Below are positions 13,871-41,039 of a DNA stretch of 45,173 nucleotides, in pieces; the first letter of the stretch is position 1; each line of letters starts with the position of its first letter. The stretch spans positions 1 through 45,173 of IMG/VR virus record IMGVR_UViG_3300032288_005693. The stretch is one strand, 5' to 3'. The position numbers were made by a program, and so were the translations under genes. Below the pieces are notes generated by a model. It saw only the letters and a program-made list of their open reading frames with translations. It had not been told where the DNA came from and made no database searches. Origin of the DNA: a virus.

Positions 13871-13912
13871 GCATCCTTGTATAGTTTTAAGGTTCTTACA
13901 AAGGATGTTTTT
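13871..13912 (+). promoter_or_regulatory. Hairpin that is both terminator-like and SD-sequestering, before purA-like gene
   Basis: CATCCTTGTA (13872-13881) pairs with TACAAAGGATG (13897-13907), 10 pairs with one bulged A, followed by five T and then the ATG at 13913. The 3' arm contains the SD AAAGGA. Read from upstream it resembles an intrinsic terminator; in the message it hides the ribosome-binding site of the adenylosuccinate synthetase gene. Confidence 0.6.
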
Positions 13913-14977
13913 ATGTCTGTTAAAGTTATTCTTGGTCTTCAAAATGGTGATGAAGGTAAAGGTCGTGTTGTTGATGATCTTTGCACTACTACTCATAATC
14001 CAATTATCGTTCGTTTTCAAGGTGGTGCTAATGCAGGACATACCATCTATGATGAAAATGGTATTAAGTCTGTGGTGCATCTATTACCTAGTGGTGTTTT
14101 AAATCCCAATGCTGTTAATGTTATAACAAGAGCAACTATTGTTGATCCTGTTCAACTTGTTAAAGAAATCAAAGAGTTTAATGTTCAACCCAAAACATTA
14201 ATCGTATCTAATTATTGTCCTGTTGTTATGTCTTGGCATATAGATGAAGATAAATTGAAATATCAACATAGACTTGGGACTACTGCTAAAGGCATTGGAC
14301 CAGCATTAAAAGATTTTATTGCAAGAGATAATTTCAATTTAAGCAGTTGGATAGAAAAATTTTCCTATTTAGAAGAAGCTAAATTCTTAAAAGACTATGT
14401 AGGTGATGCAGAAGGTTTTCTTAGAGATATGGTTTCCTATGGTAGAAATGTTATCCTTGAAGGTTGTCAAGGATATAGTCTTGATATTTGGGGTGAAGAA
14501 TATCCAAATGTTACTTCATCTTGCACTACCATTGGTGCTGTTTTCTATTCCACTAGACTCAACCATAAACAAATTGATGAAGTGATTGGGATCGCCAAAA
14601 TTTATGAAACCAAAGTAGGTACAGGTTCTTTTGAAGAACTTGAACTAGCATTATCAGAAAAATATCGTGAAGTAGGTAAAGAATATGGTGCTACTACAGG
14701 AAGACCAAGAAAGATTGGGTGGTTAGATTTAGATTTATTAAAAGAAGCGATTCAAGTTAATGGTGTTGATACTCTTATTATTACCAAAACTGATATACCA
14801 CCCCAAGTAGGAACTCTTAGAATTAAGACTTTAGAAGATTATTGGGATATTGATACTTCTTGGAATGGTAATGATCTATCACCATTATTAAAACTTTTAG
14901 ATCGTATTAAGTCATATACAGGCGTTAATAAGATAGGATATACTTTTGGGGAAAATAGGGGGTGTATTAAAATTTAA
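13913..14977 (+). CDS. purA: Compact adenylosuccinate synthetase-like enzyme
   Basis: A 354-residue member of the PurA family, which joins IMP and aspartate using GTP; cellular enzymes have about 430 residues. The N-terminal loop NGDEGKG keeps the catalytic Asp13 and Lys16; GGANAGHT keeps the catalytic His43; LGTTAKGIGPA and IARD match the IMP-binding Thr and Arg; EGCQG and PNVTSS give the Gln and Thr contacts; GATTGRPRKIGWLD and TKTD are the Arg-rich and guanine-recognition motifs. Phage PurZ enzymes, which make the diaminopurine precursor from dGMP, replace the catalytic Asp and, in the phiVC8 enzyme, lack the TKxD motif, so this protein reads as PurA rather than PurZ. Missing length lies between IARD and EGCQG and near the C-terminus. 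The start MSVKV follows AAAGGA; the upstream ATG at 13877 lies in the hairpin. Confidence 0.85.
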   Translation: MSVKVILGLQNGDEGKGRVVDDLCTTTHNPIIVRFQGGANAGHTIYDENGIKSVVHLLPSGVLNPNAVNVITRATIVDPVQLVKEIKEFNVQPKTLIVSNYCPVVMSWHIDEDKLKYQHRLGTTAKGIGPALKDFIARDNFNLSSWIEKFSYLEEAKFLKDYVGDAEGFLRDMVSYGRNVILEGCQGYSLDIWGEEYPNVTSSCTTIGAVFYSTRLNHKQIDEVIGIAKIYETKVGTGSFEELELALSEKYREVGKEYGATTGRPRKIGWLDLDLLKEAIQVNGVDTLIITKTDIPPQVGTLRIKTLEDYWDIDTSWNGNDLSPLLKLLDRIKSYTGVNKIGYTFGENRGCIKI

Positions 14978-14990
14978 AAATAATATAAGT

Positions 14991-15025
14991 ATAGCATAAA
15001 CCACTAGATCAAAGGATTATGCTAT
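14991..15025 (+). promoter_or_regulatory. Hairpin trapping the start codon of the 231-aa gene
   Basis: ATAGCATAA (14991-14999) and TTATGCTAT (15017-15025) form a perfect 9-bp stem. The 17-base loop ends in the SD AAAGGA, and the first two bases of the ATG at 15024 are in the stem. Confidence 0.6.
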
Positions 15026-15719
15026 GATCAAAAAATTGAATACACCTAAAAATTTTTACCTTGTCTATATAACACCACCTAATGAAAATATACCATCTTC
15101 AAAAGCAGATTTTAGTTTTCTTCTAAATGAGAATGAATCAGTGCAAGTTATAGCTGATTTGAATTTAAATGCTAGGTATACTGCTTATTCTTTTTACCGA
15201 ACTAATGACTTAACTAGAGAACAAATTTTAAATCTTCAACCACTAAGCCAAAGAGAAATCCTTTTCTTTGTAGCTTGTGCTTTTCTTAATGAAAGGATTG
15301 ATATGGCTAAAGAACTCCTTCTTAGCAGTGCAAACGCAGATTTTATTAAAAGCTTTTCCAAAGTTCTTAAAAAAAAAGATGCTTTGATTGCCCATGCTCA
15401 TATTATTGCACATCTTAATAATAAGACACCCACTACTACTTTTATCCGACCATTTGAACAAACAATATCCTGTTCTAAAAATGATTTGTTTAAACTTTTA
15501 AAGGATCATTTTGCTTATATAGATATTACTCGTACTGATGATATTGAACCTGAATGGTCTAGGAATTTAGATGCTTTTAAAAAAGCTGATCAAATTCGTG
15601 TACGCATTGATCATAAATTTATAGATAGTTTTGAAAAGCTTTCAGGATTAGACCACCTTAAATGGATAGAAGGTGAAAGCACTGATTATTATACTTTTGA
15701 AATTACTCTTGATCCTTAA
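15024..15719 (+). CDS. Hypothetical protein, 231 aa
   Basis: Starts ATG after SD AAAGGA. The N-terminal third is strand-rich, the middle is helical (REILFFVACAFLNERIDMAKELLL, given here as a pattern of Leu/Phe/Ala with a helix-like spacing) and the C-terminus again alternates (IRVRIDHKF, YYTFEITL). No catalytic or membrane motif is visible. It lies 46 bases after the adenylosuccinate synthetase gene with its own start-codon hairpin. The end overlaps the convergent minus gene by 17 bases. Not recognised. Confidence 0.65.
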   Translation: MIKKLNTPKNFYLVYITPPNENIPSSKADFSFLLNENESVQVIADLNLNARYTAYSFYRTNDLTREQILNLQPLSQREILFFVACAFLNERIDMAKELLLSSANADFIKSFSKVLKKKDALIAHAHIIAHLNNKTPTTTFIRPFEQTISCSKNDLFKLLKDHFAYIDITRTDDIEPEWSRNLDAFKKADQIRVRIDHKFIDSFEKLSGLDHLKWIEGESTDYYTFEITLDP

Positions 15720-15966
15720 CCACAATTTTACCATCATCTAAAATTTGGAAAGCTTGGTCTTCTCTAATATCAAACTTAAACTTAATTTGATTCAGTAAAG
15801 TTTGCGCTTCTTCTTCATTCTTATTTAAAGAATGAACTACTTGGGACTTCTTTAATTCTAAACTCCCTAGTTGATTTACTAGCTGTACTGCTGTTTGTTT
15901 TAATTCACTAAACTTAGCAATTTGTTGTTCAGAGAGTGTTCCGATTTGTTTCATTGTGTTTTGCAT
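15703..15966 (-). CDS. Small coiled-coil protein overlapping an exported protein gene
   Basis: An 87-residue protein with SD AAAAGG just before ATG 15966. The region from about 10 to 65 is a continuous helix with heptad-like Leu/Ile/Val spacing, ending in a short charged strand (DGKIVVKDQE). It overlaps the upstream gene by 38 bases in another frame and its own 3' end overlaps the convergent plus gene by 17 bases. Not recognised. Confidence 0.5.
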   Translation of the reverse strand: MQNTMKQIGTLSEQQIAKFSELKQTAVQLVNQLGSLELKKSQVVHSLNKNEEEAQTLLNQIKFKFDIREDQAFQILDDGKIVVKDQE

Positions 15967-16210
15967 TTTGAATTGCCTTTTTCAATTTAAGTTTTTCTAA
16001 GATGTCTTTAGACTTATTATTTATACAATCTGTTTTATTTTTTAAACGATCTATTTGATAGACTTCTTGTTTTTTTATTACAGGTGCAGGTTTTATTTCT
16101 TTTGCATAGGAAGTATTTACTTCTATGTTCTTTTTATCAAAGAATCCATCTGTTCCTGATATTAAAAAAAAGACAGATGTAAAAATAATAGCTAAAGGAT
16201 ATACTTTCAT
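15929..16210 (-). CDS. Small exported or membrane-anchored protein
   Basis: A 93-residue protein starting MKVYPLAIIFTSVFFLISG, a signal or anchor segment. The rest is very Lys/Asn-rich with a proline break (KPAPVIKK) and a helical segment (ILEKLKLKKAIQNAKH). Its 3' end overlaps the coiled-coil gene. With the TM/coiled-coil gene upstream this makes a run of three small envelope-type proteins, which loosely resembles lysis cassettes. No lipobox or endolysin is visible, so a spanin call would be guesswork. Confidence 0.5.
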   Translation of the reverse strand: MKVYPLAIIFTSVFFLISGTDGFFDKKNIEVNTSYAKEIKPAPVIKKQEVYQIDRLKNKTDCINNKSKDILEKLKLKKAIQNAKHNETNRNTL

Positions 16211-16220
16211 TTTAAAAGAC

Positions 16221-16541
16221 TCACTTTTCTAATAAGATTTTTTGTATCTCATTTAAGTTTTTTTCTATGCTGTTAATATCTTTCTCTATGTCTTTTAATG
16301 CTTGTTCTGTTTTTGAATCTTGAACTTTGTTATTAACAACATCTTTTTTGATCTCATAGACTTCATAGTCCATTTGATTGATTTTATTCTGTATCATTAT
16401 AACTTGATTTTCTAATATGGCATTTTTCACACTCATATCATTTAACCAATATAGTAGTGGCAAAACACTTGCAGATAAACCTTTTAAAAACCAGCTTATC
16501 CACTTTCTTATTTGCTCATTTTGTTTTTCTGTTAAGTTCAT
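16221..16541 (-). CDS. Single-pass membrane coiled-coil protein
   Basis: A 106-residue protein. A charged N-terminus (TEKQNEQIRKW) is followed by a hydrophobic segment at about 15-34 (WFLKGLSASVLPLLYWL) and then a long coiled coil (IQNKINQMDYEVYEIKKDV and onwards) to the end. The start lies 2 bases after the stop of the upstream structural gene and has no clear SD, so it may be coupled. Topology is similar to inner-membrane spanin or phage anchor proteins, but the assignment is not supported beyond that. Confidence 0.5.
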   Translation of the reverse strand: MNLTEKQNEQIRKWISWFLKGLSASVLPLLYWLNDMSVKNAILENQVIMIQNKINQMDYEVYEIKKDVVNNKVQDSKTEQALKDIEKDINSIEKNLNEIQKILLEK

Positions 16542-16543
16542 TT

Positions 16544-17434
16544 CTATAAAAAGTTTCTAGGACTTAAAACACCACGACCAACATGGGGACCAAATGCTGA
16601 TCTAATACCCACACCATATTTTGGTTGTTGAAGTCCTCTTATAATCTTTGTTGTTCTTGCTTTCATTTCCGTAGCAGTTTGCCATTGGCTTTCTGCCGCA
16701 GATCTTAATCCTTCATATTTAGATGATTTATCTATATTCAAAGAGATCCCACCTATTGAATAATCAAATTCATCTACAATCCAATTTGCCTGTAATGCCA
16801 TCGCCGCAAATTGAATCGCACCTTGAAAGATTGCTGTTCGCCATGCAGGTTTTTGATTACATAAAACATCTATTGTTCTATATTCACCATCTGTTTCAGG
16901 TGGCATCATATTCCACCAATCTAATGCTCTTTCTATATACTCTAATAACTCTGCATCTTCCCATACCTGTCCAAAGACCCTATTATATTGACCCACATTA
17001 GCTTCTGCTTCAGGTGGTCTAAAATGATAAAACTTGTCAGGGTTTTGATCCCTTAATAACAATCTTAACTTATCTATCATGGTTCTTTGATTAGTTGTAT
17101 ATGAAGCGCCTATTATTATATTCTCTGTTACCACACCAAATTCTTGCACCACTTCTTGTTCAGAACTATTTACAAGTTCTTTTATTTTCCACTTTATCCT
17201 ATATGTCCCATAAGATGCAGTAGCAGGTATTCTCAATGAAGCATAATATTCACCTACTGCAGGGTTTTCAGGTATTCTAGCACCATCACCTATTAACACA
17301 TCTACTTGTTGATCTACAAAATAAATAGCATAGGTTATTGAAGAAGCATTAGCTACATTCCCACTCGCATTAGTTAGGAATATATCTAAATCACCCCTTC
17401 CTAATGTTTGTCCTCTTTTAAATGCAACACTCAT
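16544..17434 (-). CDS. Virion structural protein with N-terminal Ig-like domain (neck/head-completion-like)
   Basis: A 296-residue protein. Residues 1-105 (FKRGQTLGRGDLDIFL, SSITYAIYFVD, then a Gly-Glu-Tyr-Tyr strand and VQEFGVV) match, strand for strand, the stand-alone 103-aa protein at 27576-27887. Residues ~115-296 contain DKLRLLLRDQNPDKFYHFRP, VWEDAELLEYIERALDWWN and MPPET, a pattern I associate with large-phage neck or adaptor-type structural proteins. The last 30 residues are Arg/Gly-rich. SD GAAAGG. The virion role is inferred from this pattern, not shown. Confidence 0.6.
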   Translation of the reverse strand: MSVAFKRGQTLGRGDLDIFLTNASGNVANASSITYAIYFVDQQVDVLIGDGARIPENPAVGEYYASLRIPATASYGTYRIKWKIKELVNSSEQEVVQEFGVVTENIIIGASYTTNQRTMIDKLRLLLRDQNPDKFYHFRPPEAEANVGQYNRVFGQVWEDAELLEYIERALDWWNMMPPETDGEYRTIDVLCNQKPAWRTAIFQGAIQFAAMALQANWIVDEFDYSIGGISLNIDKSSKYEGLRSAAESQWQTATEMKARTTKIIRGLQQPKYGVGIRSAFGPHVGRGVLSPRNFL

Positions 17435-17472
17435 TTTTAACGCCTTTCTTCATTTTATAAACAAAAGAAATT

Positions 17473-17488
17473 TATAAAAAAGTTATTA
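17473..17488 (+). repeat. 16-base element shared with 19104-19119
   Basis: TATAAAAAAGTTATTA occurs here and again at 19104-19119, each time in the gap between a leftward and a rightward gene. Here it is followed by TTTAACTT, giving a short AAGTTA/TAACTT inverted repeat; at 19104 it is one arm of a long perfect palindrome. Confidence 0.5.
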
Positions 17489-17555
17489 AATTTAACTTCA
17501 ATAATCATTTTATTTTTAAAGTTTTATATTAGTTTTTAATATTGGAGATACAAAT

Positions 17556-17987
17556 ATGTATACACAAAGATTAAGAAGAAGTCGTTTGGCTTCTTTAAGA
17601 AGAATTTCCGACCAACATCTTGAAGATATAAAAAAGATGATCCTTCAAAAGAAAGAATATCTAGAAGATGTTAAAAAAATAGATGAAGATTTCCAAGTAA
17701 AAATGATGAAAGCGATGTATCTCATTTCAGACATTTATGCTGAAATGATAACCAAAACTGTTGCAGTAGGTGAAAAAGCATCCAAAAATTCTTTGAATAC
17801 AGATAATTCTCTCTTCTTTCAAGAGAATTATAAAAAAATGTCGGATACCATTAACAGTATCAAGGGTAGTGATTCTGCATATTCTACTATTGATATGCAG
17901 AATCTCATTATGAGAACTATAACTGAAGCGATTAGTAAAAACAAGAAGTTCAAGGAATTTGTACAAGAAGAATTTAAAAAGTTTTAA
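17556..17987 (+). CDS. Coiled-coil protein with RLAS leader
   Basis: A 143-residue, almost fully helical protein with SD GGAG. The N-terminus is strongly basic and carries SRLASLRR (R10-S13). The body is Lys/Glu-rich with heptad spacing (EDIKKMILQKKEYLEDVKK) and a second helical block near the C-terminus. The leader resembles those at 11871 and 18048. Not recognised; possibly packaged with DNA. Confidence 0.6.
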   Translation: MYTQRLRRSRLASLRRISDQHLEDIKKMILQKKEYLEDVKKIDEDFQVKMMKAMYLISDIYAEMITKTVAVGEKASKNSLNTDNSLFFQENYKKMSDTINSIKGSDSAYSTIDMQNLIMRTITEAISKNKKFKEFVQEEFKKF

Positions 17988-18015
17988 ACCTTCAATAAAT
18001 TATTTATTCATTCCT

Positions 18016-18040
18016 ATTCTTTTGATAAAAACAAAAGGAT
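18016..18040 (+). promoter_or_regulatory. Hairpin covering the SD of the 234-aa gene
   Basis: ATTCTTTTG (18016-18024) pairs with CAAAAGGAT (18032-18040), nine pairs with one G-T wobble around a 7-base loop. The whole SD AAAAGGAT is in the stem; the start is the ATG at 18048. Confidence 0.55.
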
Positions 18041-18047
18041 CTTGAAA

Positions 18048-18752
18048 ATGATTAAAAGTTCTTTATATAAAAGACTAGCAAGTCTTAAGAAAAATTCTAG
18101 TGGTGTCTTACTTCCTGAAAGTGCAACAATTATTGCAGTCTTTTCTCAAGGTAAAAATTTATCTGTTTGGACTAATACAACAGGTTTAGTTAATGCTCAA
18201 ACCTTTAATGATCTCTTTGAAGAAGCAAAAGAGAAAACTAATGTTGTTAGTAAAGCAGGATATAAGCTAAGATTTAAACCACAATTTGGCGAATATTTAT
18301 GGTCTGTGGATGCTAATTTTAGAATCCCTACACCTTTCTTATATAACTATTTCCATAAAAAATTTGGGAATCATATTTTCTACTTTGGGGATTATGCAGA
18401 AAGCATGAGTTTTTTTGATGAAGGGTATGATCTTGTTAAAGATAAAATGAATCCTGATGAAACAAGAAAATTCTCATATTTTGGATTTTCTATGCCTGAT
18501 GATGGTGATTTAAGTAAGGTCAATATTAAACTTGCTTGGGCTGGTGAACGAGCGCCCCAACCACCTTTATTGAAAGTAAAGGTGGTGCGATTCTTTGGTC
18601 AAAATATTATTAATGCTAATATTTACCCTTTAGAAGAAACTGCTGATTTCTCATTCTTAGAACCTGAAGTAGATAACTATACTTCTAAAGAAGAGATGAT
18701 TATTGATTGGGTTAAAATCAACACACAATACAAGTTTATTCAAAAATTTTAA
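18048..18752 (+). CDS. Hypothetical protein with RLAS leader, 234 aa
   Basis: Starts ATG after AAAAGGAT; a TTG two codons upstream is less likely. The leader YKRLASLKKNSSG (R9-S12) matches other small proteins here. The body is a mixed alpha/beta domain rich in Phe and Tyr (YFHKKFGNHIFYFGDYAES, YFGFSMPDDGD). No known motif. It is convergent with the next gene, sharing four bases at the stops. Confidence 0.6.
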   Translation: MIKSSLYKRLASLKKNSSGVLLPESATIIAVFSQGKNLSVWTNTTGLVNAQTFNDLFEEAKEKTNVVSKAGYKLRFKPQFGEYLWSVDANFRIPTPFLYNYFHKKFGNHIFYFGDYAESMSFFDEGYDLVKDKMNPDETRKFSYFGFSMPDDGDLSKVNIKLAWAGERAPQPPLLKVKVVRFFGQNIINANIYPLEETADFSFLEPEVDNYTSKEEMIIDWVKINTQYKFIQKF

Positions 18753-19063
18753 TTAAACCAAGTTCTTACCAATTCTTTATCAAATCCTGCCTTATATAAC
18801 ACATGGCGAATTTGTTTTTTAATCTCTGCAGGTGGTTCACCTTCATAAGGATTTGAAAAACCATTTTGTGCGATTGATAATATTGGTTCTCTTCTTCCTC
18901 GCTCAAAGATTGCTTCATTGATTAATTGTAGACGATATTCTCTTTTAGTATCATCATCATCACCTGCTAATGCCATCGCCAAATCACTCATACTAAAAGT
19001 CTTCTTGGTATAGTGCATTGAAGTCTTTTTTAGCTTATCTAGTCTTGCTCTTAAATTTCTCAT
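18749..19063 (-). CDS. Small basic hypothetical protein
   Basis: A 104-residue protein with SD GAAAGG. The N-terminus is basic and amphipathic (RNLRARLDKLKKTS), followed by an acidic patch (AGDDDD) and a helical segment (KKQIRHVLYKAGFDKELVR). The basic leader is like, but not identical to, the RLAS leaders. Not recognised. Confidence 0.55.
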   Translation of the reverse strand: MRNLRARLDKLKKTSMHYTKKTFSMSDLAMALAGDDDDTKREYRLQLINEAIFERGRREPILSIAQNGFSNPYEGEPPAEIKKQIRHVLYKAGFDKELVRTWFN

Positions 19064-19104
19064 TGAGATTACCTTTCTTATTAAACTTTTATATAGAATA
19101 GAAT

Positions 19105-19142
19105 ATAAAAAAGTTATTACAGATCTGTAATAACTTTTTTAT
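19105..19142. terminator. 38-bp perfect palindrome, bidirectional terminator or operator
   Basis: Both halves (19 bases each, centred on AGATCT) are exact reverse complements, with a run of six A on the left and six T on the right, so either strand gives a GC-poor stem followed by a U-run. It sits between divergent gene starts at 19063 and 19186, where a terminator would only stop transcripts coming from outside the pair. A dimeric regulator operator is the alternative. Confidence 0.65.
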
Positions 19143-19185
19143 AAGATTCCTATTTAATATTATAAACTTAAATGGGGTAGTTTTT

Positions 19186-19929
19186 ATGACTGTTCATTAT
19201 CAAAATAATAAAGTCCCTGTTAAAGTAGCAAGTAATGCCACAGCATATACTTTAACTGCATCAGATAGTATTTATGTAGGTTATAGCGGTCAGACTATTA
19301 ACCTACCTGCACCATCTTCTGTTTTAGGATACCGATATGTGATTAAAGCACCTAGTAATATTTCATCTACTATCACTATTAATGCTTCTACTAATAGCAG
19401 TATGATTGATGGTCTAAATTCTTATCTTATGTATGATAAGAATGATACTTTAGAAGTAGTAGCTACAAGTAGTGGTTGGGTGAAAGTCAGTAATGGTACT
19501 TCATATATATGTTCAGGTAGATTAGCATCCGATCAAACAATTACAAGTAGTGAAGATAACATTATTCACTTTCAAAATAATCAAACATTATCACTAGATC
19601 CTTTGAGCTGGTGGAATAATAGTACTTATAAATATCAGCCTACATTACCAGGGTATTACAATATTTGCTATAGTGTATGGTTTTCAGCAGGTGCTTCTTC
19701 TTTAAACCAAATGAATATACAAATAAGAAAAGGACTAGATTCTGTTGCTATAACTCAATCACCTATTCCAACATCTACAGGTGGGTCTTTATTTGCATCA
19801 AGCATCACCTATTTAAATGGTTCTACTGACTATATTCAATTTACAGCATATAGTTCTAATCCTACTTCTCATGTAGTACAAGGTAGTGGGGCTAGTAATG
19901 GTACATATTTCACTGCGATTAAAGTTTAA
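19186..19929 (+). CDS. Tail-fibre/adhesin-like protein with C1q-like C-terminus
   Basis: A 247-residue protein starting ATG after GGGG. It is Ser/Thr/Asn/Gly-rich and nearly all strand. Residues ~1-105 repeat short strands ending in SGWVKVSNG; residues ~110-247 (LPGYYNICYSVWFSAGASS, QIRKGLDS, ending TYFTAIKV) have the layout of a C1q/TNF-like trimeric jelly roll as found at phage fibre tips. This would bind the host surface or decorate the particle. The fold is inferred from strand pattern and ending. Confidence 0.6.
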   Translation: MTVHYQNNKVPVKVASNATAYTLTASDSIYVGYSGQTINLPAPSSVLGYRYVIKAPSNISSTITINASTNSSMIDGLNSYLMYDKNDTLEVVATSSGWVKVSNGTSYICSGRLASDQTITSSEDNIIHFQNNQTLSLDPLSWWNNSTYKYQPTLPGYYNICYSVWFSAGASSLNQMNIQIRKGLDSVAITQSPIPTSTGGSLFASSITYLNGSTDYIQFTAYSSNPTSHVVQGSGASNGTYFTAIKV

Positions 19930-19942
19930 TATTGTTTAAATA

Positions 19943-19972
19943 GATAACTCTTTATAAACACAAGGAGTTATC
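19943..19972 (+). promoter_or_regulatory. Hairpin trapping the SD of the glycine-rich fibre gene
   Basis: GATAACTC (19943-19950) and GAGTTATC (19965-19972) form a perfect 8-bp stem with a 14-base loop. The SD AAGGAG starts in the loop and runs into the 3' arm; ATG is at 19977. Confidence 0.6.
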
Positions 19973-19976
19973 AAAA

Positions 19977-21173
19977 ATGGCAAATTCATTATCTTTAAGA
20001 ATTACTAATATCGGATCTTCATCTTCACTATATATAAGTGATATACATGATGGTAAAGATCAAAATGGTCGTGTCAATAATCGTAAACCCTATCAATATG
20101 TACCCGCTAATGGTTCAGTAGTAGTGTTATTTACAGAACAAGTGAAGTATAGTTATGAGAATGGTGCAATAAGATCATTTATAGATCAAGGTTTAATTGA
20201 GACCTTTTTTGTTATGGGGGAAGTAAATCTCTTGAGTACAGATGAAGATGGCAGTTATAAACTCAATGTATCTTATGAAGGTAATACTTTTTATTTGAGA
20301 GATAACACTAATAGTGATGTTGGTACAAATATTAATGTAAAAGCAGGTAATTCTGTAGATGAAACAGGTGGAGACATTCAACTACAAGGTGGGAACTCGG
20401 ACAATAATAATGGGGGTTATATAGGATTGACAGGTGGTGAAGGAACAAATGGTGGTACTGTGACCATATATGGTGGTCGAGGTAGTACAGGAACTGCAGG
20501 TAATATTACTTTAGCAGCAGGGGATAAACCTACAGGTAATGGTGGTAGTGTAAATATATATGGTGGTCCTGCTTGGGTAGCAGGTGCAGAAGCTGGTGGT
20601 GTGAATATATATGGAGGTAATTCTATTACCACAGGTGAAGCTAGTATTAGTGGTTCAATTTTAATAGAAGCAGGTGGTATTGGTAATCCTGGTGTAGGTG
20701 GTTGGGTAAATACAGGTGGGGATGTCACAATTAAATCAGGTTTAGGGAATGGTGGTGGTCATAGTTCTGGTGATGTTATATTAGAACCTGTAGCTGGAGC
20801 AGGTGGTGCAAGTGATGGTAAAGTAGTCATTAAGGGAGCAAATGTTACATTAAATGAGTATGAAATAGATGGAGTTCTTTCTGTATATGGTGGAGATGGC
20901 ACTATTATATCAAATCCTTATGGTAGAATAGAAACATCTCTTTTACCAGGTGATACTCTTACAGGCTTTTCTATACCTGGTGCATTTATAACATTAACAC
21001 AAGTAATTATTGTTACTTTAGAGTATCCAAATGTTGCAGGTTTAGTTTTAAATATACCTGCACATATTACCTCAAGAGTATTAGGTGTTCATGCGAATGT
21101 AGAATTAGAATTAGTTAATGGTAGTGGTGCAGAAGTTACTGTTTATTTAAATTGGATGGTATTGGGTGCTTGA
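19977..21173 (+). CDS. Glycine-rich repetitive fibre protein
   Basis: A 398-residue protein. Residues ~1-105 are a strand-rich head (SLRITNIGSSSSLYISDIHD). Residues ~120-285 are short repeats of the form GG-x-V-x-I-x-GG (GGTVTIYGGRG, GGSVNIYGGPA, GGVNIYGGNS), as in stacked beta-solenoid fibres. The C-terminal ~110 residues are non-repetitive strands ending VYLNWMVLGA and may be the tip. It follows the other fibre-like gene by 47 bases with its own SD hairpin. The repeat region is the likeliest place for length variation between related phages. Confidence 0.65.
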   Translation: MANSLSLRITNIGSSSSLYISDIHDGKDQNGRVNNRKPYQYVPANGSVVVLFTEQVKYSYENGAIRSFIDQGLIETFFVMGEVNLLSTDEDGSYKLNVSYEGNTFYLRDNTNSDVGTNINVKAGNSVDETGGDIQLQGGNSDNNNGGYIGLTGGEGTNGGTVTIYGGRGSTGTAGNITLAAGDKPTGNGGSVNIYGGPAWVAGAEAGGVNIYGGNSITTGEASISGSILIEAGGIGNPGVGGWVNTGGDVTIKSGLGNGGGHSSGDVILEPVAGAGGASDGKVVIKGANVTLNEYEIDGVLSVYGGDGTIISNPYGRIETSLLPGDTLTGFSIPGAFITLTQVIIVTLEYPNVAGLVLNIPAHITSRVLGVHANVELELVNGSGAEVTVYLNWMVLGA

Positions 21174-21189
21174 TATTAAGGATAAGTTA

Positions 21190-21435
21190 TTAAACTTTAA
21201 CTGCACATCCAAGAATTTTTTGAATATTAGAAACTAAGCTGTTCAAATCCGCATTATCATATAGATCATATCGTGTTGATCCCATTAACACAAAATAAGG
21301 TGATGGGTTATCAAGAAATAGTACTACCATATCATCAATATGATTTGTAACAGTGATTTTATTTGGCGATACGACTTCAACAATAAAGTCATTTAATAGT
21401 TCTGATAGAATAGAGAAGAAATATTGTGTATTCAT
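21190..21435 (-). CDS. Small hypothetical protein, 81 aa
   Basis: SD AAAAGGA before ATG 21435. A short alpha/beta protein (FFSILSELLNDFIVEVVSPN then a strand block MVVLFLDNPSPYFVLMG). It has the same size and rough layout (helix, strands, aromatic turn, C-terminal helix) as the proteins at 21858 and 22158, though identity is low. Not recognised. Confidence 0.55.
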   Translation of the reverse strand: MNTQYFFSILSELLNDFIVEVVSPNKITVTNHIDDMVVLFLDNPSPYFVLMGSTRYDLYDNADLNSLVSNIQKILGCAVKV

Positions 21436-21449
21436 TTGAATTTTCCTTT

Positions 21450-21551
21450 TTAAGACTTCTTTGGTGGAAGAAATAATTTACCTAAGGTTGCACTTATTTT
21501 GGCATCTTTTTCAGATTGTGTTTGTTTAGTCTTGCTCTTTTGATTTTGCAT
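21450..21551 (-). CDS. Very small basic protein, 33 aa
   Basis: An ORF with ATG at 21551 and SD AAAGGA about nine bases upstream, reading MQNQKSKTKQTQSEKDAKIS and ending LPPKKS. The good SD and its fit between two other small minus genes support a real gene. Highly Lys/Gln-rich, no hydrophobic stretch. The 21552-21707 stretch beyond it holds only a promoter-like element. Confidence 0.45.
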   Translation of the reverse strand: MQNQKSKTKQTQSEKDAKISATLGKLFLPPKKS

Positions 21552-21646
21552 AATGCTTAATCCTTTGTTTAGTTGTATTAGTTACACCTTAAACACTTCA
21601 TAAATATCTTTATTGCAAGTTCATTAAAAAACTTTTTTTCATCAAG

Positions 21647-21681
21647 TTGCAATAAATCTAAATCATCTTGTGTTTATATAG
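21647..21681 (+). promoter_or_regulatory. Probable promoter, copy B
   Basis: TTGCAATAA, TAAATC and TGTTTATAT occur in the same order and spacing as upstream of the gene at 13534. It lies just before the 47-aa acidic protein gene. Confidence 0.5.
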
Positions 21682-21707
21682 TGAATCCAACAGAAAGGAA
21701 AAAACAA

Positions 21708-21851
21708 ATGGATGACTTCTTAACCTACACTTCTTGTGAAGAATTTTACTCTTATGAAGATGAAACCCCTAGCATCATTGAAAATGAAGAAAGACCCTTA
21801 GATAACTTCTTAACAGAACCCACTTGTGAAGAGTTTTATACCGAAGAATAA
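21708..21851 (+). CDS. Tiny acidic protein with an internal duplication
   Basis: A 47-residue protein with SD AAAGGA and a conserved promoter element upstream. It reads as two similar halves: DDFLTYTSCEEFYSYED and, after a spacer, DNFLTEPTCEEFYTEE. Net charge is strongly negative and each half has one Cys. It is an isolated plus gene inside a minus block. Small acidic phage proteins are often DNA mimics or host-enzyme inhibitors, but no function can be assigned here. Confidence 0.5.
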   Translation: MDDFLTYTSCEEFYSYEDETPSIIENEERPLDNFLTEPTCEEFYTEE

Positions 21852-21857
21852 TAAACC

Positions 21858-22157
21858 TTATTGATTGCTCTCTATAATAAAATTCCTAAGTCCTATTAAA
21901 TCATCATAATAAAATTTACCATATTTCACTTCAGGCAAATCAGCCATACTTATATCAAACCATATATGTCTTTCTACATTAAAGAAATCCCCACCTTCTA
22001 CAAAGAGAAAAGATGGTTCAAATTCAAATGGTAAATCTCTTTTAATCTTTAAGTCTTTATATGATGCAGATACATAATCTTCACTATCTATTTTAAATTC
22101 ACATAAAAGATCACTGCAATTCTCTAATAAAAAAGCTAATAACTTTGTCATTGTCAT
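21858..22157 (-). CDS. Small hypothetical protein, 99 aa
   Basis: Acidic alpha/beta protein (LLAFLLENCSDLLCEFKIDSE, residues ~5-25, pattern of helix then strand; later SFLFVEGGDFF and a C-terminal helix). Starts directly at the stop of the gene at 22158; the SD AAGGAT is inside the upstream coding end. Its layout is like the 22158 and 21190 products, suggesting a small diverged family. Not recognised. Confidence 0.55.
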   Translation of the reverse strand: MTMTKLLAFLLENCSDLLCEFKIDSEDYVSASYKDLKIKRDLPFEFEPSFLFVEGGDFFNVERHIWFDISMADLPEVKYGKFYYDDLIGLRNFIIESNQ

Positions 22158-22439
22158 TTATCCTTCTAAAATGAAATCTTTAATCTCATTAATTTGTGTA
22201 ATGCTAAATGTTGCACTACTTAAAATTTTAGGTTTTAATTCAAGATCCCCAATCTCATCCCAATATTGTTTTTCTACTAAGACAAGATCCTGTTCTTTAA
22301 TAGAAAATAAAATATTCATATCATCTTCTAAAAAATGAGATTCCAAAGTACCCATACATAAATTATGCGTGTCTAAACTTATTATATTAACTAGCATTTC
22401 ACTGAAATTGTCTTTTACATAACTTCTTATATCAAACAT
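22158..22439 (-). CDS. Small hypothetical protein, 93 aa
   Basis: Acidic alpha/beta protein with VKDNFSEMLVNIISL at the N-terminus, a strand block (NILFSIKEQDLVLVEKQYWD) and a final helix (ITQINEIKDFILEG). Similar plan to its downstream neighbour. The start is weakly supported (AGAG before ATG). The upstream gap carries a CCTTATATAGA element, with the same distance to its gene as at 41028. Not recognised. Confidence 0.55.
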   Translation of the reverse strand: MFDIRSYVKDNFSEMLVNIISLDTHNLCMGTLESHFLEDDMNILFSIKEQDLVLVEKQYWDEIGDLELKPKILSSATFSITQINEIKDFILEG

Positions 22440-22464
22440 ATTTTTTCTCTAAAATAGTCTTAAC

Positions 22465-22494
22465 TCTATATAAGGCATTATACAAAATGAATCT
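22465..22494 (-). promoter_or_regulatory. Promoter-like element, TATAAT box plus shared CCTTATATAGA
   Basis: On the minus strand TTTTGTATAATG is followed by CCTTATATAGA (22465-22475 on the plus numbering). The same 11 bases lie at 41028-41038 before the minus gene starting at 41002; in both cases exactly 25 bases separate it from the start codon. Confidence 0.45.
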
Positions 22495-22512
22495 TATTTT
22501 TGAGTAGGATAT

Positions 22513-23085
22513 TTAGATTGCTCTAACAAGTCTTAGTTGTGTTGTGATGCTTTCAATTTCATCTTCAATGGGTTTTCTTTTTGGATCTTTTTTACCTTTA
22601 GGAATATTATCTAATTCTTCAAGTAATTGACCTAGACGAACTTTAAGGGGTTCGATCTTTTCAGGATTTGCTTTTAAATCTTTCCAAACAGCTTCCTCTT
22701 CATCTGTCATAACAACATAAGTGTGTTCAGGATTAGCATCTTTATCATAGAAAGAATCCTTGAGTTGGTCAATGATCTCTTCTCTTAATCGATCATATTT
22801 ACTAGCAGTATCTTGGATTTGATTACCAAGTTTTACCATTTCAGTAAATTTATCTTTAATTTCAGGCATGGCTTGAAACAAGCTAGTATAAGGGTCTCGA
22901 TCTAAATCATAGTTATAAATACTATCATTGTAATAATGAACTACTCCCCACCCACTTGTTTCGGAATAAGCCTTATACCAAGAAAAATTTCTTGTATAAA
23001 AATTACATCTTTTCCCACCTGAAATCTTTTCAAGGACAGGATAAGCTAATTCCTCTTTTTTTGTAATGAAGCGTCTTTTAGCCAT
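22513..23085 (-). CDS. Tandem-family paralogue 4 (diverged)
   Basis: A 190-residue protein. The start at MAKRRFITKK is chosen because its three upstream relatives begin with similar MGRPRGISQ, MRVISK and MARAISK starts; the longer ATG at 23124 would run 38 bases into the upstream gene. It shares the plan: short basic N-terminus, LEKISGGKRCN in place of LSGHKCN, aromatic block, long helix and C-terminal coiled coil (ESITTQLRLVRA). The most diverged of the four. Function unknown. Confidence 0.6.
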   Translation of the reverse strand: MAKRRFITKKEELAYPVLEKISGGKRCNFYTRNFSWYKAYSETSGWGVVHYYNDSIYNYDLDRDPYTSLFQAMPEIKDKFTEMVKLGNQIQDTASKYDRLREEIIDQLKDSFYDKDANPEHTYVVMTDEEEAVWKDLKANPEKIEPLKVRLGQLLEELDNIPKGKKDPKRKPIEDEIESITTQLRLVRAI

Positions 23086-23086
23086 T

Positions 23087-23614: not shown

Positions 23615-23627
23615 GATTTATTTACTC

Positions 23628-24137: not shown

Positions 24138-24148
24138 TTTAGTAACTC

Positions 24149-24661: not shown

Positions 24662-24669
24662 GATGTAAA

Positions 24670-25122: not shown

Positions 25123-25130
25123 AGGTGTTT

Positions 25131-27896: not shown

Positions 27897-27921
27897 CCTT
27901 ATTGCTAGGTTTTCAATAAGG
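27897..27921 (-). promoter_or_regulatory. Hairpin trapping the SD of the Ig-like protein gene
   Basis: CCTTATTG (27897-27904) and CAATAAGG (27914-27921) are perfect inverted arms with a 9-base loop. On the minus strand the SD AAGGA is in the 3' arm, about nine bases before the start codon. Confidence 0.6.
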
Positions 27922-29207: not shown

Positions 29208-29226
29208 AGTTATTTCCTTTATAACT
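29208..29226 (-). promoter_or_regulatory. Hairpin presenting the SD in its loop
   Basis: AGTTAT (29208-29213) and ATAACT (29221-29226) are perfect arms around a 7-base loop that is, on the minus strand, AAAGGAA. The start codon follows the stem directly. Confidence 0.5.
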
Positions 29227-29946: not shown

Positions 29947-29958
29947 TTGAATCTCCTA

Positions 29959-31416: not shown

Positions 31417-31460
31417 TAATAACCTTTCATCTTATCTCTATAAATAAGATGATGTTATTA
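31417..31460 (-). promoter_or_regulatory. Long two-part hairpin around the SD of the 238-aa structural gene
   Basis: TAATAAC (31417-31423) pairs with GTTATTA (31454-31460) and CATCTTAT (31428-31435) with ATAAGATG (31444-31451), 15 pairs in all, with an internal loop (4 against 2 bases) that holds the minus-strand SD AAAGG. Confidence 0.6.
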
Positions 31461-32449: not shown

Positions 32450-32511
32450 TTTTTTATCCTTTTGTGTAAGCAAAATATTCAATACATAAAAAGATATTAA
32501 TAAAATATAAA

Positions 32512-32802: not shown

Positions 32803-32819
32803 TTTATCCTTTTGATAAG
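32803..32819 (-). promoter_or_regulatory. Short hairpin at the SD of the EF-hand gene
   Basis: TTATC (32804-32808) and GATAA (32814-32818) flank a five-base loop containing most of the SD on the minus strand, plus a G-T pair. Five pairs only, so chance is possible. Confidence 0.3.
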
Positions 32820-33283: not shown

Positions 33284-34156
33284 TTATCGCCATTTACCTT
33301 TTAAAAAAGGATTCGTTTCTTTTGGTATCTTATATGGTTCTATCTCAAAATTACCTTCGCCATCTTCTTTACATATCCTAAACAAATTCAATTTTAATCT
33401 TGGTTTTACTACACTGCATTTATACCCTAAGATTCTTACCTTATATGGCAAGGTGTAAAAATTAAAACTCTTCTCTTGGGGGTCTATTACATATTGACAA
33501 CTTGTCTTTAACCTATTAGGAACATTCCGCACCATGTTATGTGGATCATCAAAACTTTTTGGTCTATATTTATACATATTCTCTATTATATCTTCTTTAC
33601 TCTTTGTTTCTCTTAATACTTTTAATGCTCTTAATCTTCTTAAGATTGTAGATTTTCTACCTTCACCTTCTTGCGACCCTGCTTCAGGTATATCGATACC
33701 ATGATTAGTTCTTACATGAATATCTTCATTTGGATCAATTTCTTTACATACAGGTTCTGCATTTTCATAATGTTCTACTGAATATGATTTATCTGCACTT
33801 GATATAATTGTATGTCCATATAACCCATTCTTATACTCACATATCATATCCACTGCATCTTCTACTGTTTTTTGTTCTAAGGCTTTTAATATAATTTCCC
33901 CATCACATTTAGCTGAATCTTTCATTCTACTTTCATCTACTGATGGCATCAAAGAAGCATTTATGATTCCTATCCCATACTGATTCATACCTTCTATCCA
34001 CCCTGTTAAATCATCTTTAAAATATAAGACTTCTACACCATGTTTTAATTCATGGTAAAAAGTTATATCTGTTCTGTAATTTCTATCCCTATTCTTAAGT
34101 AGAACACGATCTTTATCCCATTTACCTAATGCTACAATACAACCTTGCTTATTCAT
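33284..34156 (-). CDS. Ntn-hydrolase of the acyl-transferase (C45-like) type
   Basis: A 290-residue protein. GC at residues 5-6 (MNKQGCIVALGK) would give, after Gly-Cys cleavage as in penicillin acyltransferase, an N-terminal nucleophile Cys6. Next comes LLKNRDRNY (Asn/Arg/Asp of the N-terminal strand), GWIEGMNQYGIGIINASL, a helix, and RTNHG, then EGRKSTILRRLRAL. That is the order of the AAT/C45 family, which hydrolyses linear amide bonds or transfers acyl groups. The substrate is unknown. No signal peptide, so action in the cell or in the particle. The start overlaps the upstream gene by 8 bases. Confidence 0.65.
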   Translation of the reverse strand: MNKQGCIVALGKWDKDRVLLKNRDRNYRTDITFYHELKHGVEVLYFKDDLTGWIEGMNQYGIGIINASLMPSVDESRMKDSAKCDGEIILKALEQKTVEDAVDMICEYKNGLYGHTIISSADKSYSVEHYENAEPVCKEIDPNEDIHVRTNHGIDIPEAGSQEGEGRKSTILRRLRALKVLRETKSKEDIIENMYKYRPKSFDDPHNMVRNVPNRLKTSCQYVIDPQEKSFNFYTLPYKVRILGYKCSVVKPRLKLNLFRICKEDGEGNFEIEPYKIPKETNPFLKGKWR

Positions 34157-35147
34157 TTTTTAAACTCCTTAAGACTGCCAATATATGTTTGCATACTTTA
34201 TTATTTTGAGATTGATCTTTTTGAGTAGGTTTACTTGCTGTCCCTTTGGGTGATCCTAGTAAATAACCATCTTGTTTTGCATGGTATTCCGCACCTTGAT
34301 ATTGCCAAAAACCACAATTACAATTCACAAAGATATTGTTATTAGTATCTAGTAATATATTCACTTGATACTCACCTACTTGATAAGGACTTACTTTATC
34401 TCTACCTAAAAATTTACCACTAATAACTTTTTCACTTGGTGTAATGCTTGGGTTTAATCCTGTTAATACTTCTTTTATGGTTGTAGCTTTTCTCATCGCA
34501 AAAGTATTATTTACCATGCTTTCTGTAAATACATGATTATCCTTAGCAGTCTTTACCAATTCTTTCTTAAAAGCTAATTTATTAGTCTTAGATGGACTTA
34601 ATAAACAATTCATACAAGCTGTTCTTAAATTATCAGTATCTTGAAAAAGATAGCTTAATTTATATGCTCTCATTATAAGAGATGCTTCTTTTTTAGCTAA
34701 TGACTTTTTAATCTCTTCTTCATTGTCTTTCTTCCATTTTTTCCATTTACTATGTTCAGGACTACTTGATTTGCTAGGATCATGACCCCAATTCTTTAAT
34801 GAGATTTCCCATTTACTCATACCTGTTGAACCTACAGGTTGACCAGGTTTCCCACCTAACATACGACCATTAAAACCATTCTCTTGACTCGCATTATCAA
34901 AATCCTGTGCAGTCCAATCTTCAAATGGTTTGTCTTTTCTTCTCTTGATACGATGAAAAGAATCATACCCTGATTGTATTTTCCCATTATCTTTAGCTTC
35001 TTCTCTATTTAAAGATGCTTCAAGATGATCAGGATTTTCACCCCATTCTTTTAATTCTTTTTCAGTCATATTAATAAGTTTATGCCACTTATCATAGATC
35101 TCTTTTTTTTCTTCATCAGATCGTTCTTTAGATATATGCTTAAACAT
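34149..35147 (-). CDS. SWIM zinc-finger-like protein with internal KEAS leader
   Basis: A 332-residue protein. The N-terminal ~148 residues are charged, with GRMLGGKPGQPVGSTGMSKW in the centre. At about 150-190 stand KKEASLIMRAYKLSYLF and LRTACMNCLL, the leader-type motif seen at the start of the 31469 and 9077 products. The C-terminus holds NCNCGFWQYQGAEYHA (Cys-x-Cys) and, about 40 residues later, KVCKHI (Cys-x-His), the SWIM zinc-binding pattern. SWIM proteins bind DNA or proteins. The internal leader suggests fusion or a removed pro-region. The SD is in a perfect 9-bp hairpin. Confidence 0.65.
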   Translation of the reverse strand: MFKHISKERSDEEKKEIYDKWHKLINMTEKELKEWGENPDHLEASLNREEAKDNGKIQSGYDSFHRIKRRKDKPFEDWTAQDFDNASQENGFNGRMLGGKPGQPVGSTGMSKWEISLKNWGHDPSKSSSPEHSKWKKWKKDNEEEIKKSLAKKEASLIMRAYKLSYLFQDTDNLRTACMNCLLSPSKTNKLAFKKELVKTAKDNHVFTESMVNNTFAMRKATTIKEVLTGLNPSITPSEKVISGKFLGRDKVSPYQVGEYQVNILLDTNNNIFVNCNCGFWQYQGAEYHAKQDGYLLGSPKGTASKPTQKDQSQNNKVCKHILAVLRSLKNE

Positions 35148-35149: not shown

Positions 35150-35179
35150 TCTTATCCTTTTTTTACATATAGGATAAGA
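35150..35179 (-). promoter_or_regulatory. Hairpin trapping the SD of the SWIM gene
   Basis: TCTTATCCT (35150-35158) and AGGATAAGA (35171-35179) are perfect 9-base arms with a 12-base loop. On the minus strand the SD AAAGGAT runs from the loop into the 3' arm, two bases before ATG. Confidence 0.65.
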
Positions 35180-38480: not shown

Positions 38481-39623
38481 ATGCAACTCTTTAACTATAA
38501 AAAAATAGGTGGTTATACTAAAACCATTAAAGTAGAACTCGATTCTATTTTAGAAAATTTAGCACAAGCTAGTGACTATACTTTCACAGGTGAATCTTCT
38601 TTTTTTGTACCTGAATTTGATGTTCCTCAAGATTTTTCTCTTGGGGTTATTTATGGTTCTTCAGGTACAGGTAAATCTACACTTCTTCAAGAATTTGGAT
38701 CTTTAGATTCTTTTGAATGGGATTCTAATAAAGCTATTGCTTCTCAAGTAAATCCTGATCTTCTTATGAGATTGGGGTTATCTTCTATCCCTTCTTTATG
38801 CAGACCCTACCATGTCTTATCTACAGGGGAAAAACATAGAGCAGATATAGCAGTATCTTTAAAAGATGGTTGTGTTATCGATGAATTTACAAGTGTATGT
38901 AATAGAGATTTGGCAAAGTCTATCTGTATTGGATTAAGAAATACGATTGATAAATTAGGATATAAGAACATAGTTCTAGCATCATGCCATGAAGATGTTA
39001 TTAATTGGTTAGAACCTGATTGGGTTATTAACACTATCACAGGGTCGCTTGTTGAAGGGAGGTCGATTCGGCAAAATTCAGAGTATAGAATTATTCCCTG
39101 CTCAACTCAAGCGTGGTCAATCTTCAAAAACCATCACTATTTAAGTCAAGATATTTTAGCAGGTGCTTACTGTTGGATTCTATTAGATTCTCAAAATCAT
39201 ATTTGTGGATTTGCTTCAGCCATCCCCTCGCCCGGTCGTGATCTTAAAAATGCTTGGCGTGAACATAGGACTGTTATCTTACCTGATTATCAAGGCATAG
39301 GTCTTGGATCTAAATTATCCAATACTGTAGCACAAATGTTTATTGATAAGGGTTGCAGATATTTTTCTAAAACAGCACACCCTAAATTTGGGGAATATAG
39401 AAATAAATCCCCATTATGGAAACCTACTAGCATGAATAATGTAAGCAGGAAAAGATCTTATGAAGGGATGGCTACAAGTACTAAGAAAAAAGGCGCTTAT
39501 AATAGTTTTGATTATATGTCCCATGCAGAAAGAGTTTGTTATTCTCATGAATATATAGGTTTGGCATTACAAGCTAAAAAAAATATAATAGTTAACACCC
39601 CACAGCAAGAATCTTTATTTTAG
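38481..39623 (+). CDS. ABC ATPase fused to GNAT acyltransferase, copy 1
   Basis: A 380-residue protein. Residues ~1-195 are an ABC-type ATPase: Walker A GSSGTGKST (K65), signature LSTGEKHRAD (~112), Walker B GCVIDEF (D134, E135) and switch CHED (~171). Residues ~205-335 are a GNAT-type acyltransferase, with HHYLS, GAYCWI, GFASAI and the acyl-CoA loop PDYQGIGLGSKL. The order ABC then GNAT is the layout of COG2401, an uncharacterised class. Phage Mom, which modifies adenine in DNA, is also a GNAT protein, so base modification is a possible role but unproven. A twin gene follows 8 bases downstream. Confidence 0.8.
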   Translation: MQLFNYKKIGGYTKTIKVELDSILENLAQASDYTFTGESSFFVPEFDVPQDFSLGVIYGSSGTGKSTLLQEFGSLDSFEWDSNKAIASQVNPDLLMRLGLSSIPSLCRPYHVLSTGEKHRADIAVSLKDGCVIDEFTSVCNRDLAKSICIGLRNTIDKLGYKNIVLASCHEDVINWLEPDWVINTITGSLVEGRSIRQNSEYRIIPCSTQAWSIFKNHHYLSQDILAGAYCWILLDSQNHICGFASAIPSPGRDLKNAWREHRTVILPDYQGIGLGSKLSNTVAQMFIDKGCRYFSKTAHPKFGEYRNKSPLWKPTSMNNVSRKRSYEGMATSTKKKGAYNSFDYMSHAERVCYSHEYIGLALQAKKNIIVNTPQQESLF

Positions 39624-39631
39624 GATTAGAT

Positions 39632-40747
39632 ATGTTTAAAAAAATAGGTGGCTATACCAAAACCATTAAAGTTGAACTTGATGATACTTTATTAAAATTT
39701 ACCAATTCAAATGAGTCTTCTTTCTTTGTACCTGAATTTGAAGTACCCCAAGATTTTTCTCTTGGGGTTATTTATGGTTCTTCAGGTTCAGGCAAAACAT
39801 CTTTATTAAAAGAATTTGGTTCTCTTGATTCTTTTGAATGGGGTCGCACTAAAGCACTAGCATCCCAAGTAAATCCTAATCTTCTAATGCGATTAGGTTT
39901 ATCTTCTATCCCTTCTTTATGTAGACCATATCATATCTTATCCACAGGGGAAAAACATAGAGCAGATATAGCAGTATCTTTAAAAGATGGTTGTGTTATT
40001 GATGAATTTACAAGTGTCTGTAATAGAGATCTAGCTAAATCAATAAGCATAGGATTAAGAAATACGATTGATAAATTAGAATACAAGAGTGTTGTATTAG
40101 CATCATGCCATGAAGATGTTATTGATTGGTTAGAACCTGATTGGGTTATTAATACAAATACAAATACTATTACTATAGGTAGAACAAAAAGATCTCTTTC
40201 TACATATCAAGTAATACCATGCTCAACTCAAGCATGGGATATTTTCAAATCGCATCACTATTTAAGTGCAGATATTAATGCAGGTGCTTATTGTTGGCTT
40301 ATGGTTAATGATAAAAATAATATCTGTGGATTTGCTTCAGCTATTGCAAATCCTGGTCAAGGATTAGGTAATGCTTGGCGTGGTCATAGATTAGTTATCT
40401 TACCTGATTATCAAGGTATAGGTTTAGGGTCTAAATTATCTGATACTATAGGACAAATGTTTTTAGATAAGGGATCTAGGTATTTTTCTAAAACAGCGCA
40501 TCCTAAATTAGGTGAACATAGAAATAAATCGCCATTATGGAAACCTACTAGTACAAATTTAGTAAATAGAGAAAAGCACTATATTAGTTTTGCTAATGAA
40601 TCGGATAAATATAAATGTAGTGCTAAACATTATCTTAGTCATTCTAAGAGATTATGTTATTCCCATGAATATATAGGTAGCAATCCTATAAGTAGGACTA
40701 TTGCAAAAAAAGAAAGTATTGAAGATATACAGGGATCTTTATTTTAA
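39632..40747 (+). CDS. ABC ATPase fused to GNAT acyltransferase, copy 2
   Basis: A 371-residue twin of the preceding protein, with the same start (KKIGGYTKTIKVELD). It keeps Walker A GSSGSGKTS (K55), LSTGEKHRAD, the Walker B acidic pair in GCVIDEF, CHED, HHYLS, GFASAI and PDYQGIGLGSKL, and ends with SPLWKPTS plus a divergent tail. The differences cluster in the linker, around the GNAT substrate face (ANPGQGLGNAWRGHR versus SPGRDLKNAWREHR) and near the C-terminus. Both copies look intact, so they may act together or on different targets. Ends adjacent to the convergent minus gene. Confidence 0.8.
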   Translation: MFKKIGGYTKTIKVELDDTLLKFTNSNESSFFVPEFEVPQDFSLGVIYGSSGSGKTSLLKEFGSLDSFEWGRTKALASQVNPNLLMRLGLSSIPSLCRPYHILSTGEKHRADIAVSLKDGCVIDEFTSVCNRDLAKSISIGLRNTIDKLEYKSVVLASCHEDVIDWLEPDWVINTNTNTITIGRTKRSLSTYQVIPCSTQAWDIFKSHHYLSADINAGAYCWLMVNDKNNICGFASAIANPGQGLGNAWRGHRLVILPDYQGIGLGSKLSDTIGQMFLDKGSRYFSKTAHPKLGEHRNKSPLWKPTSTNLVNREKHYISFANESDKYKCSAKHYLSHSKRLCYSHEYIGSNPISRTIAKKESIEDIQGSLF

Positions 40748-41002
40748 TTACTTCATGTTCTTCATAAAAAGAGTCTTAGCTTCATTTAATTGTTTTTCAG
40801 CTTCTTTTATTGCTTTTAAAGCTTGTGCTATACTGCTACCTTGTGTTTTGAATAAATTGTTATATTCAAATAGTGCTTCTGAAGTAGGCATATCAAGACT
40901 GTCTTGGAAATCTATTTTGATCTCATCTATTTCATCTAGCATTTCATCAATACCTTGAATAGCATTTTTAATTTTTATATCTTTGGCGAGTCGTCTAAAC
41001 AT
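40748..41002 (-). CDS. Small coiled-coil protein, 84 aa
   Basis: Begins MFRRLAKDIKIKN, a basic leader related to the RLAS type (RRLAK), then acidic/helical repeats (IDEMLDEIDEIKIDF; LKAIKEAEKQLNEAKTLF). SD AAGGAT in a perfect 9-bp hairpin. The end abuts the convergent ABC-GNAT gene without a gap. Not recognised. Confidence 0.6.
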   Translation of the reverse strand: MFRRLAKDIKIKNAIQGIDEMLDEIDEIKIDFQDSLDMPTSEALFEYNNLFKTQGSSIAQALKAIKEAEKQLNEAKTLFMKNMK

Positions 41003-41011
41003 AATTATAAA

Positions 41012-41039
41012 TCCTTATATGATTGGTTCTATATAAGGA
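41012..41039 (-). promoter_or_regulatory. Hairpin trapping the SD of the 84-aa gene, with promoter-like element
   Basis: TCCTTATAT (41012-41020) and ATATAAGGA (41031-41039) are perfect 9-base arms around a 10-base loop. On the minus strand the SD AAGGA is in the 3' arm and the 5' arm contains CCTTATATAGA, also found upstream of the gene starting at 22439. Confidence 0.6.

Follow-up and report, generated by a model that had tools for sequence, protein, structure and literature searches.

IMG/VR virus record IMGVR_UViG_3300032288_005693, an uncultured phage whose whole record of 45,173 bases (30-35% GC) forms the window analysed here, carries genes on both strands whose leaders fold into hairpins over the Shine-Dalgarno (SD) sequence or the start codon. 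A preliminary description of this DNA had listed nine such structures as clear and five as weaker, and had likened them to the hairpins by which phage T4 silences certain late genes on read-through RNA. All nine clear structures were recovered (Table 1; local-fold z-scores were computed against dinucleotide shuffles, and p values for SD stems were obtained from shuffles). Eight of them mask either the SD or the start codon, and the ninth, at 29208-29226, presents the SD in its loop. The five weaker hairpins (13404-13427, 25131-25144, 26839-26869, 28404-28422 and 32803-32819) do not rise above chance (p 0.37-1.0) and were rejected, while the list of clear cases proved incomplete, having missed the stem in the leader of 31469-32449. 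Among the individual structures, the hairpin at 13872..13907 has TATAGT in its loop, and that at 18016..18040, whose leader contains the promoter-like motif L described below, reaches a whole-segment z of only -1.0.

Table 1. Leader hairpins and adjoining promoter-like motifs in the window.
Feature	Position	Strand	Gene or leader	Measures and remarks
SD-burying hairpin	13872..13907	+	leader of PurZ/adenylosuccinate-synthetase-like gene 13913-14977	11-bp SD stem, shuffle p=0.010; z -2.95
Start-codon-burying hairpin	14991..15025	+	gene 15024-15719	z -4.0; SD in loop region
Motif L, promoter-like (TTAATA-N5-TTTATA type)	17991..18008	+	upstream of 18048	motif model, arm offset +8; putative function
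SD-burying hairpin	18016..18040	+	leader of 18048-18752	9-bp SD stem, p=0.025; opening cost 6.7 kcal/mol
Motif L, promoter-like	19925..19942	+	directly before 5' arm of 19943..19972	motif model, offset +1; putative function
SD-burying hairpin	19943..19972	+	leader of 19977-21173	11 bp; z -6.4; opening cost 9.9 kcal/mol
SD-burying hairpin	27897..27921	-	leader of 27576-27887	8 bp, SD-stem p=0.075; z -1.9
Small hairpin, SD in loop, not a lock	29208..29226	-		z -4.4; SD opening cost 0.0 kcal/mol
Two-part SD hairpin	31417..31460	-	leader of 30698-31414	z -3.4
SD-burying 9-bp stem	32455..32496	-	leader of 31469-32449	p=0.045; opening cost 7.3 kcal/mol
SD-burying hairpin	35150..35179	-	leader of 34149-35147	9 bp, p=0.035; z -2.7
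SD-burying hairpin	41012..41039	-	leader of 40748-41002	9 bp, p=0.045; z -2.1

Two close relatives of the window were identified, G001 (316 kb; protein identity 34-99%, mostly 60-90%, across matched genes) and G002 (196 kb; 30-91% across matched genes), together with the further relatives G008 (72 kb), G007 (85 kb) and G012 (54 kb). A megablast search of window positions 13000-30000 against 50,697 phage records returned no DNA-level match. At the protein level the closest annotated record is LR745208, a 485-kb uncultured phage with a GC content of 54-56%, in which the feature is not seen (SD stems of at least 9 bp in 0 of 47 leaders). T4 proteins with a clear match in G001 are restricted to a few enzymes (ribonucleotide reductase, thymidine kinase, dCMP deaminase, helicase and endonucleases), and we take the window and its relatives to represent a lineage of huge tailed phages outside the T4 group.

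To quantify the hairpins, genes were called with our own codon-usage model, with SD assignments likewise our own, and each start with an SD was scored for the longest stem containing at most one G-U pair and having at least 3 nt of the SD within its 3' arm. Controls kept the SD and downstream sequence fixed while the upstream part was shuffled with dinucleotides preserved. Among intergenic leaders (at least 25 nt of intergenic space) of the window, G001 and G002, stems of at least 9 bp were found in 41 of 332, compared with 6.6 expected. The excess is present in each genome: 7/32 leaders against 0.97 expected in the window (maximum of 3 in 60 shuffles), 24/198 against 3.9 in G001, and 10/102 against 1.7 in G002, with stems of at least 11 bp in G001 numbering 11 where 0.6 were expected. 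Leaders internal to operons, defined as those beginning fewer than 25 nt downstream of the preceding gene, have no such stem (0/100 in the three genomes, 0/14 in the window). The excess is also specific to the SD: in gaps between same-strand genes, 27 stems including the SD were found against 3.3 expected, compared with 15 against 6.8 for stems without it. Phage T4, which served as a positive control, gave 11 of 75 leaders against 1.1 expected, whereas a single 50-kb stretch from each of RaK2, phiKZ, phage G and KVP40 gave 2 of 68, both terminator-like. Within these small samples, the excess is not a general product of A+T richness or jumbo size. The comparison with shuffled leaders that the preliminary description had proposed as its own check leaves shuffled frequencies far below those observed, and confirms that the hairpins are real and that they extend beyond the window.

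Two classes of promoter-like motif were identified upstream of genes in the window, G001 and G002, provisionally labelled early-type and late-type. The early-type motif has the form GTTGCAAAG...AAGTGTTATAT, usually with a 21-base step; the late-type motif, termed motif L, has the form TTAATA-N5-TTTATA and ends about 44 nt before the start codon. Hairpins of at least 9 bp are distributed unequally among these classes, being absent from early-type leaders (0/53; 0.13 expected), frequent in motif-L leaders (27/97; 3.3 expected) and less so in the remainder (14/182; 3.2 expected). Most 5' arms in motif-L leaders lie at about +1 to +15 past the motif, and hairpin loops are rich in TATA[A/T] (48/78 compared with 26.9 in dinucleotide shuffles). 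In a computed truncation series, the mean cost of opening the hairpin was 6.9 kcal/mol on the longer RNA, falling to 3.0 for RNAs beginning at +7 and 1.3 for those beginning at +10 after motif L. In a few leaders it is the early-type -10 sequence that pairs with the SD arm (G001 113107; G008 32049, with an 18-bp stem), an arrangement that, if the -10 assignment is right, would place the 5' arm outside the gene's own transcript. A T[C/G]TTTA sequence about 6 nt after motif L was considered as a third promoter element and rejected, since it largely corresponds to the anti-SD core within the 5' arm; it is rarer in divergent leaders. The early-type family is strong in many intergenic regions of G001, for example at 29525(-) and 105872(+), and in that genome is usually followed within the leader by TATGTCRATAATGAC.

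A lock on translation is needed only where transcription can arrive from upstream, making the contrast between genes with a same-strand and those with a divergent upstream neighbour the decisive test. Stems of at least 9 bp are concentrated among genes placed behind a unit that could read into them, occurring in 35 of 199 leaders with a same-strand neighbour (4.1 expected) and in 5 of 131 with a divergent one (2.4 expected). This dependence persists within the motif-L class, in which the motif has equal strength and distance in both contexts: a stem is present in 23/53 same-strand and 4/44 divergent leaders (p=2e-4), an opening cost of at least 6 kcal/mol in 21/53 and 1/44 (p=5e-6), and the anti-SD core in 25/53 and 9/44 (p=0.01). 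Orthologues whose neighbours differ in orientation follow the same pattern. Of such mixed-context pairs, 7 had the stem solely in the same-strand member, 1 solely in the divergent member and none in both; when both members had a same-strand neighbour, 9 pairs had the stem in both and 5 in one. The single exception is gene 15024, whose start-codon hairpin in the window is invisible to the SD measure. Using the stem alone as criterion across six genomes, the mixed pairs numbered 8 with the stem in the same-strand member only, 2 in the divergent only and 0 in both, and the same-strand pairs 14 with the stem in both and 22 in one. Compact divergent gene pairs that share one inverted repeat, with arms of 10-25 bp, over both SDs were also observed in G007 (79228/80361 and 6812/7170), in G012 (46744/46998) and at T4 genes 26/51.

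Closer examination of individual orthologues revealed hairpins that are kept, replaced or lost. The hairpin at 19943..19972 is kept in G007 and is absent from the G002 orthologue, which sits in a divergent context, and that at 35150..35179 is kept in G001 with a longer loop, while the L009 and L012 relatives have other strong hairpins near the aligned start. Orthologous leaders often carry a different hairpin at the same place: gene 30698-31414 has other, perfect SD stems in G001 (9 bp) and G002 (11 bp), and in G001 the orthologue of gene 15024-15719 buries its SD in another stem, of 11 bp. Similarly, the G007 orthologue of 27576-27887 has a different 8-bp stem, and both orthologues of 31469-32449 have stems of 8-10 bp. 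The stem at 41012..41039 is absent from both orthologues, each in a divergent context, and that at 13872..13907 is missing from the orthologous leaders of G001, G002 and L006. The small hairpin at 29208-29226 is letter-for-letter identical in G001 and G002, though the G002 flanks differ, and its effect would be the opposite of a lock.

We consider it probable that the hairpins act as promoter-coupled translation locks against read-through RNA. A polymerase entering from a same-strand upstream gene would produce a transcript containing both arms, on which the SD or start codon would be buried and the gene left untranslated. The gene's own late-type promoter would lie just upstream of, or inside, the hairpin, such that transcripts initiated there would lack the 5' arm wholly or in part, leaving the SD free.

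Alternatively, the hairpin might act within the gene's own mRNA, either stabilising the 5' end or forming a switch that a phage factor, a helicase or temperature would open; were TTAATA the -10 box, transcription would start before the arm and the own transcript would contain the whole hairpin. Yet a feature of the own mRNA should be independent of the neighbour's direction, and leaders that share motif L at an equal distance differ sharply in stem content by context; moreover, stable burial of the SD would block the gene itself. We regard action within the own mRNA as unlikely. Although SD-sequestering riboswitches and RNA thermometers also hide the SD in a leader hairpin, the arms described here are not conserved between genes, unlike in those elements, and their presence follows neighbour orientation. 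Rfam covariance models matched no leader in the window, a tRNA being the sole match. A same-strand preference would fit equally well if the hairpin were a terminator, processing site or 3'-end stabiliser of the upstream transcript that overlapped the SD only as a result of short gaps. Intrinsic terminators and intercistronic 3'-end hairpins likewise form hairpins between same-strand genes, but where intrinsic terminators have a G+C-rich stem and a T run, the stems here are A+T-rich, tied to the SD, and followed by a spacer and start codon with no T run. The excess, furthermore, is strong only for stems that include the SD. Terminator-like sites are not in excess (9 compared with 7.2 in shuffles, in a 20-kb scan), which fits the few terminators noted in the preliminary description, and we judge an origin in the upstream transcript to be quite improbable.

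The inverted repeats could also be DNA operators for a phage transcription regulator, with the RNA hairpin a by-product, given that they adjoin or lie inside promoter-like motifs and that one repeat is common to both genes of compact divergent pairs in relatives. Such a role seems very improbable: arm sequences vary from gene to gene except for the anti-SD core, leaving no common operator, and the 3' arm is linked to the SD. That A+T-rich leaders simply pair readily with the purine-rich SD is true of stems of 6-8 bp, which shuffled leaders also yield; the five weaker cases are of this sort, and an individual 8-bp stem might yet have arisen by chance. Taken over the whole set, chance is refuted by shuffles preserving both dinucleotides and the SD, is at odds with the near absence of stems from the stretches of RaK2, phiKZ, phage G and KVP40, and cannot account for the dependence on context, leaving it with almost no credibility.

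A number of observations nevertheless weigh against promoter-coupled locking. The window, G001 and G002 are mutually related, and their counts are not independent. Among motif-L leaders behind a same-strand neighbour, stems reach 9 bp in only about 40%, and in the more distant relatives G007 and G012 stems are found at compact divergent pairs as well. Transcription starts of the hairpin genes are inferred rather than mapped, and if TTAATA is the -10 box, the own RNA would retain the hairpin (6.0 kcal/mol at -4, before the end of the motif). Two-sided compensations are also few, with 6 in 121 shared pair positions, a measure that the fixed SD leaves with little power. The proposal that structure rather than sequence is kept holds in so far as different hairpins occupy the same place, and is weakened by these few compensations and by the several orthologues that have lost the stem. 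Likewise, the suggestion that interleaving of the two strands makes such locks useful needs revision, since in the three closest genomes they go with same-strand neighbours; stems at compact divergent pairs are seen as well in the more distant G007 and G012. Few cases bear on whether locked genes sit behind early-type promoters.

Translation of T4 gene e is reduced about 100-fold on its long transcript. For e and also soc, 49, 25, 26, 39, I-TevI-III, segB and Aeh1 mobE, the SD is hidden on long transcripts, and for several of these genes the late promoter is placed so that late RNA misses the 5' strand of the hairpin (PMC3014915, PMC2988022), a mechanism proven for several T4 genes (PMC3014915). 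The structures described here resemble these inhibitory hairpins in that a leader helix buries the SD or start codon, a promoter-like motif lies at the 5' arm, the late-type genes concerned are preceded by same-strand genes, and the same statistical test picks out T4. They differ in that the motif adjoining the arms is TTAATA-N5-TTTATA and not the T4 late promoter TATAAATA, and in being distributed genome-wide according to gene orientation, with starts and silencing inferred from sequence. No T4 late-transcription gene was detected, BLASTP and phmmer searches with T4 gp55, gp33 and gp45 giving no match, although a very divergent homologue may have escaped these searches. In a search for a phage RNA polymerase, PF00562 gave no hit, and PHROG scans of 29 large G001 proteins revealed no polymerase subunit; a PF00940 search, also without a hit, was uninformative as control genomes gave none either. 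These features fit locks that would be like those of T4 in kind, with a different promoter, no recognisable T4 transcription genes and a genome-wide orientation rule. The T4-type read-through lock put forward in the preliminary description is partly supported and is the best reading, having passed tests it could have failed: stems are SD-specific, absent from operons and from the early-type class, biased toward same-strand neighbours and mostly missing in divergent orthologues; the promoter-like motif beside the arms is not that of T4.

In T4 itself (L046-L049), SD-burying stems of 8-12 bp were also observed at the early genes modB, regB, denV, alc, 30.8, nrdC.8, motB.2, mrh.2 and alt.-3, which are absent from the SD-hidden genes given in PMC3014915 and PMC2988022. 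Their 5' arm falls within, or close to, the spacer separating the GTTTAC box from the -10 box, and would therefore lie upstream of the transcription start.

Other genes of the window include an IMP dehydrogenase/GMP-reductase-like gene at 12422-13408 (-), adjoining the adenylosuccinate synthetase gene 13913-14977 (+), for which the best phage family carries the annotation 2-aminoadenylosuccinate synthetase; the pair may point to a modified purine in the genome. Positions 38481-39623 and 39632-40747 (+) encode tandem similar proteins with, from reading of the translations, an apparent ATPase and a C-terminal acetyltransferase-like part, and four adjacent genes with look-alike proteins at 22513-24661 (-) are probably a tandem expansion.

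The lock of T4 has been described gene by gene; here it would appear as a statistical property of whole genomes that follows gene order, with late-type motif genes of the three closest genomes having a stem of at least 9 bp in about 4 of 10 cases behind a same-strand neighbour and about 1 of 10 behind a divergent one. Putative early-type and late-type promoter motifs of an uncultured phage also emerge from the analysis, and the SD-stem test, which needs sequence only, can be applied to any phage genome. We see about an even chance that a huge-phage lineage lying outside the T4 group turned promoter-embedded SD hairpins, probably independently, into a genome-wide replacement for terminators, individual genes acquiring and losing locks as neighbour orientation changes. 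This would provide a simple account of how a dense phage genome in which strands alternate and recognisable terminators are few could silence its late genes early in infection.

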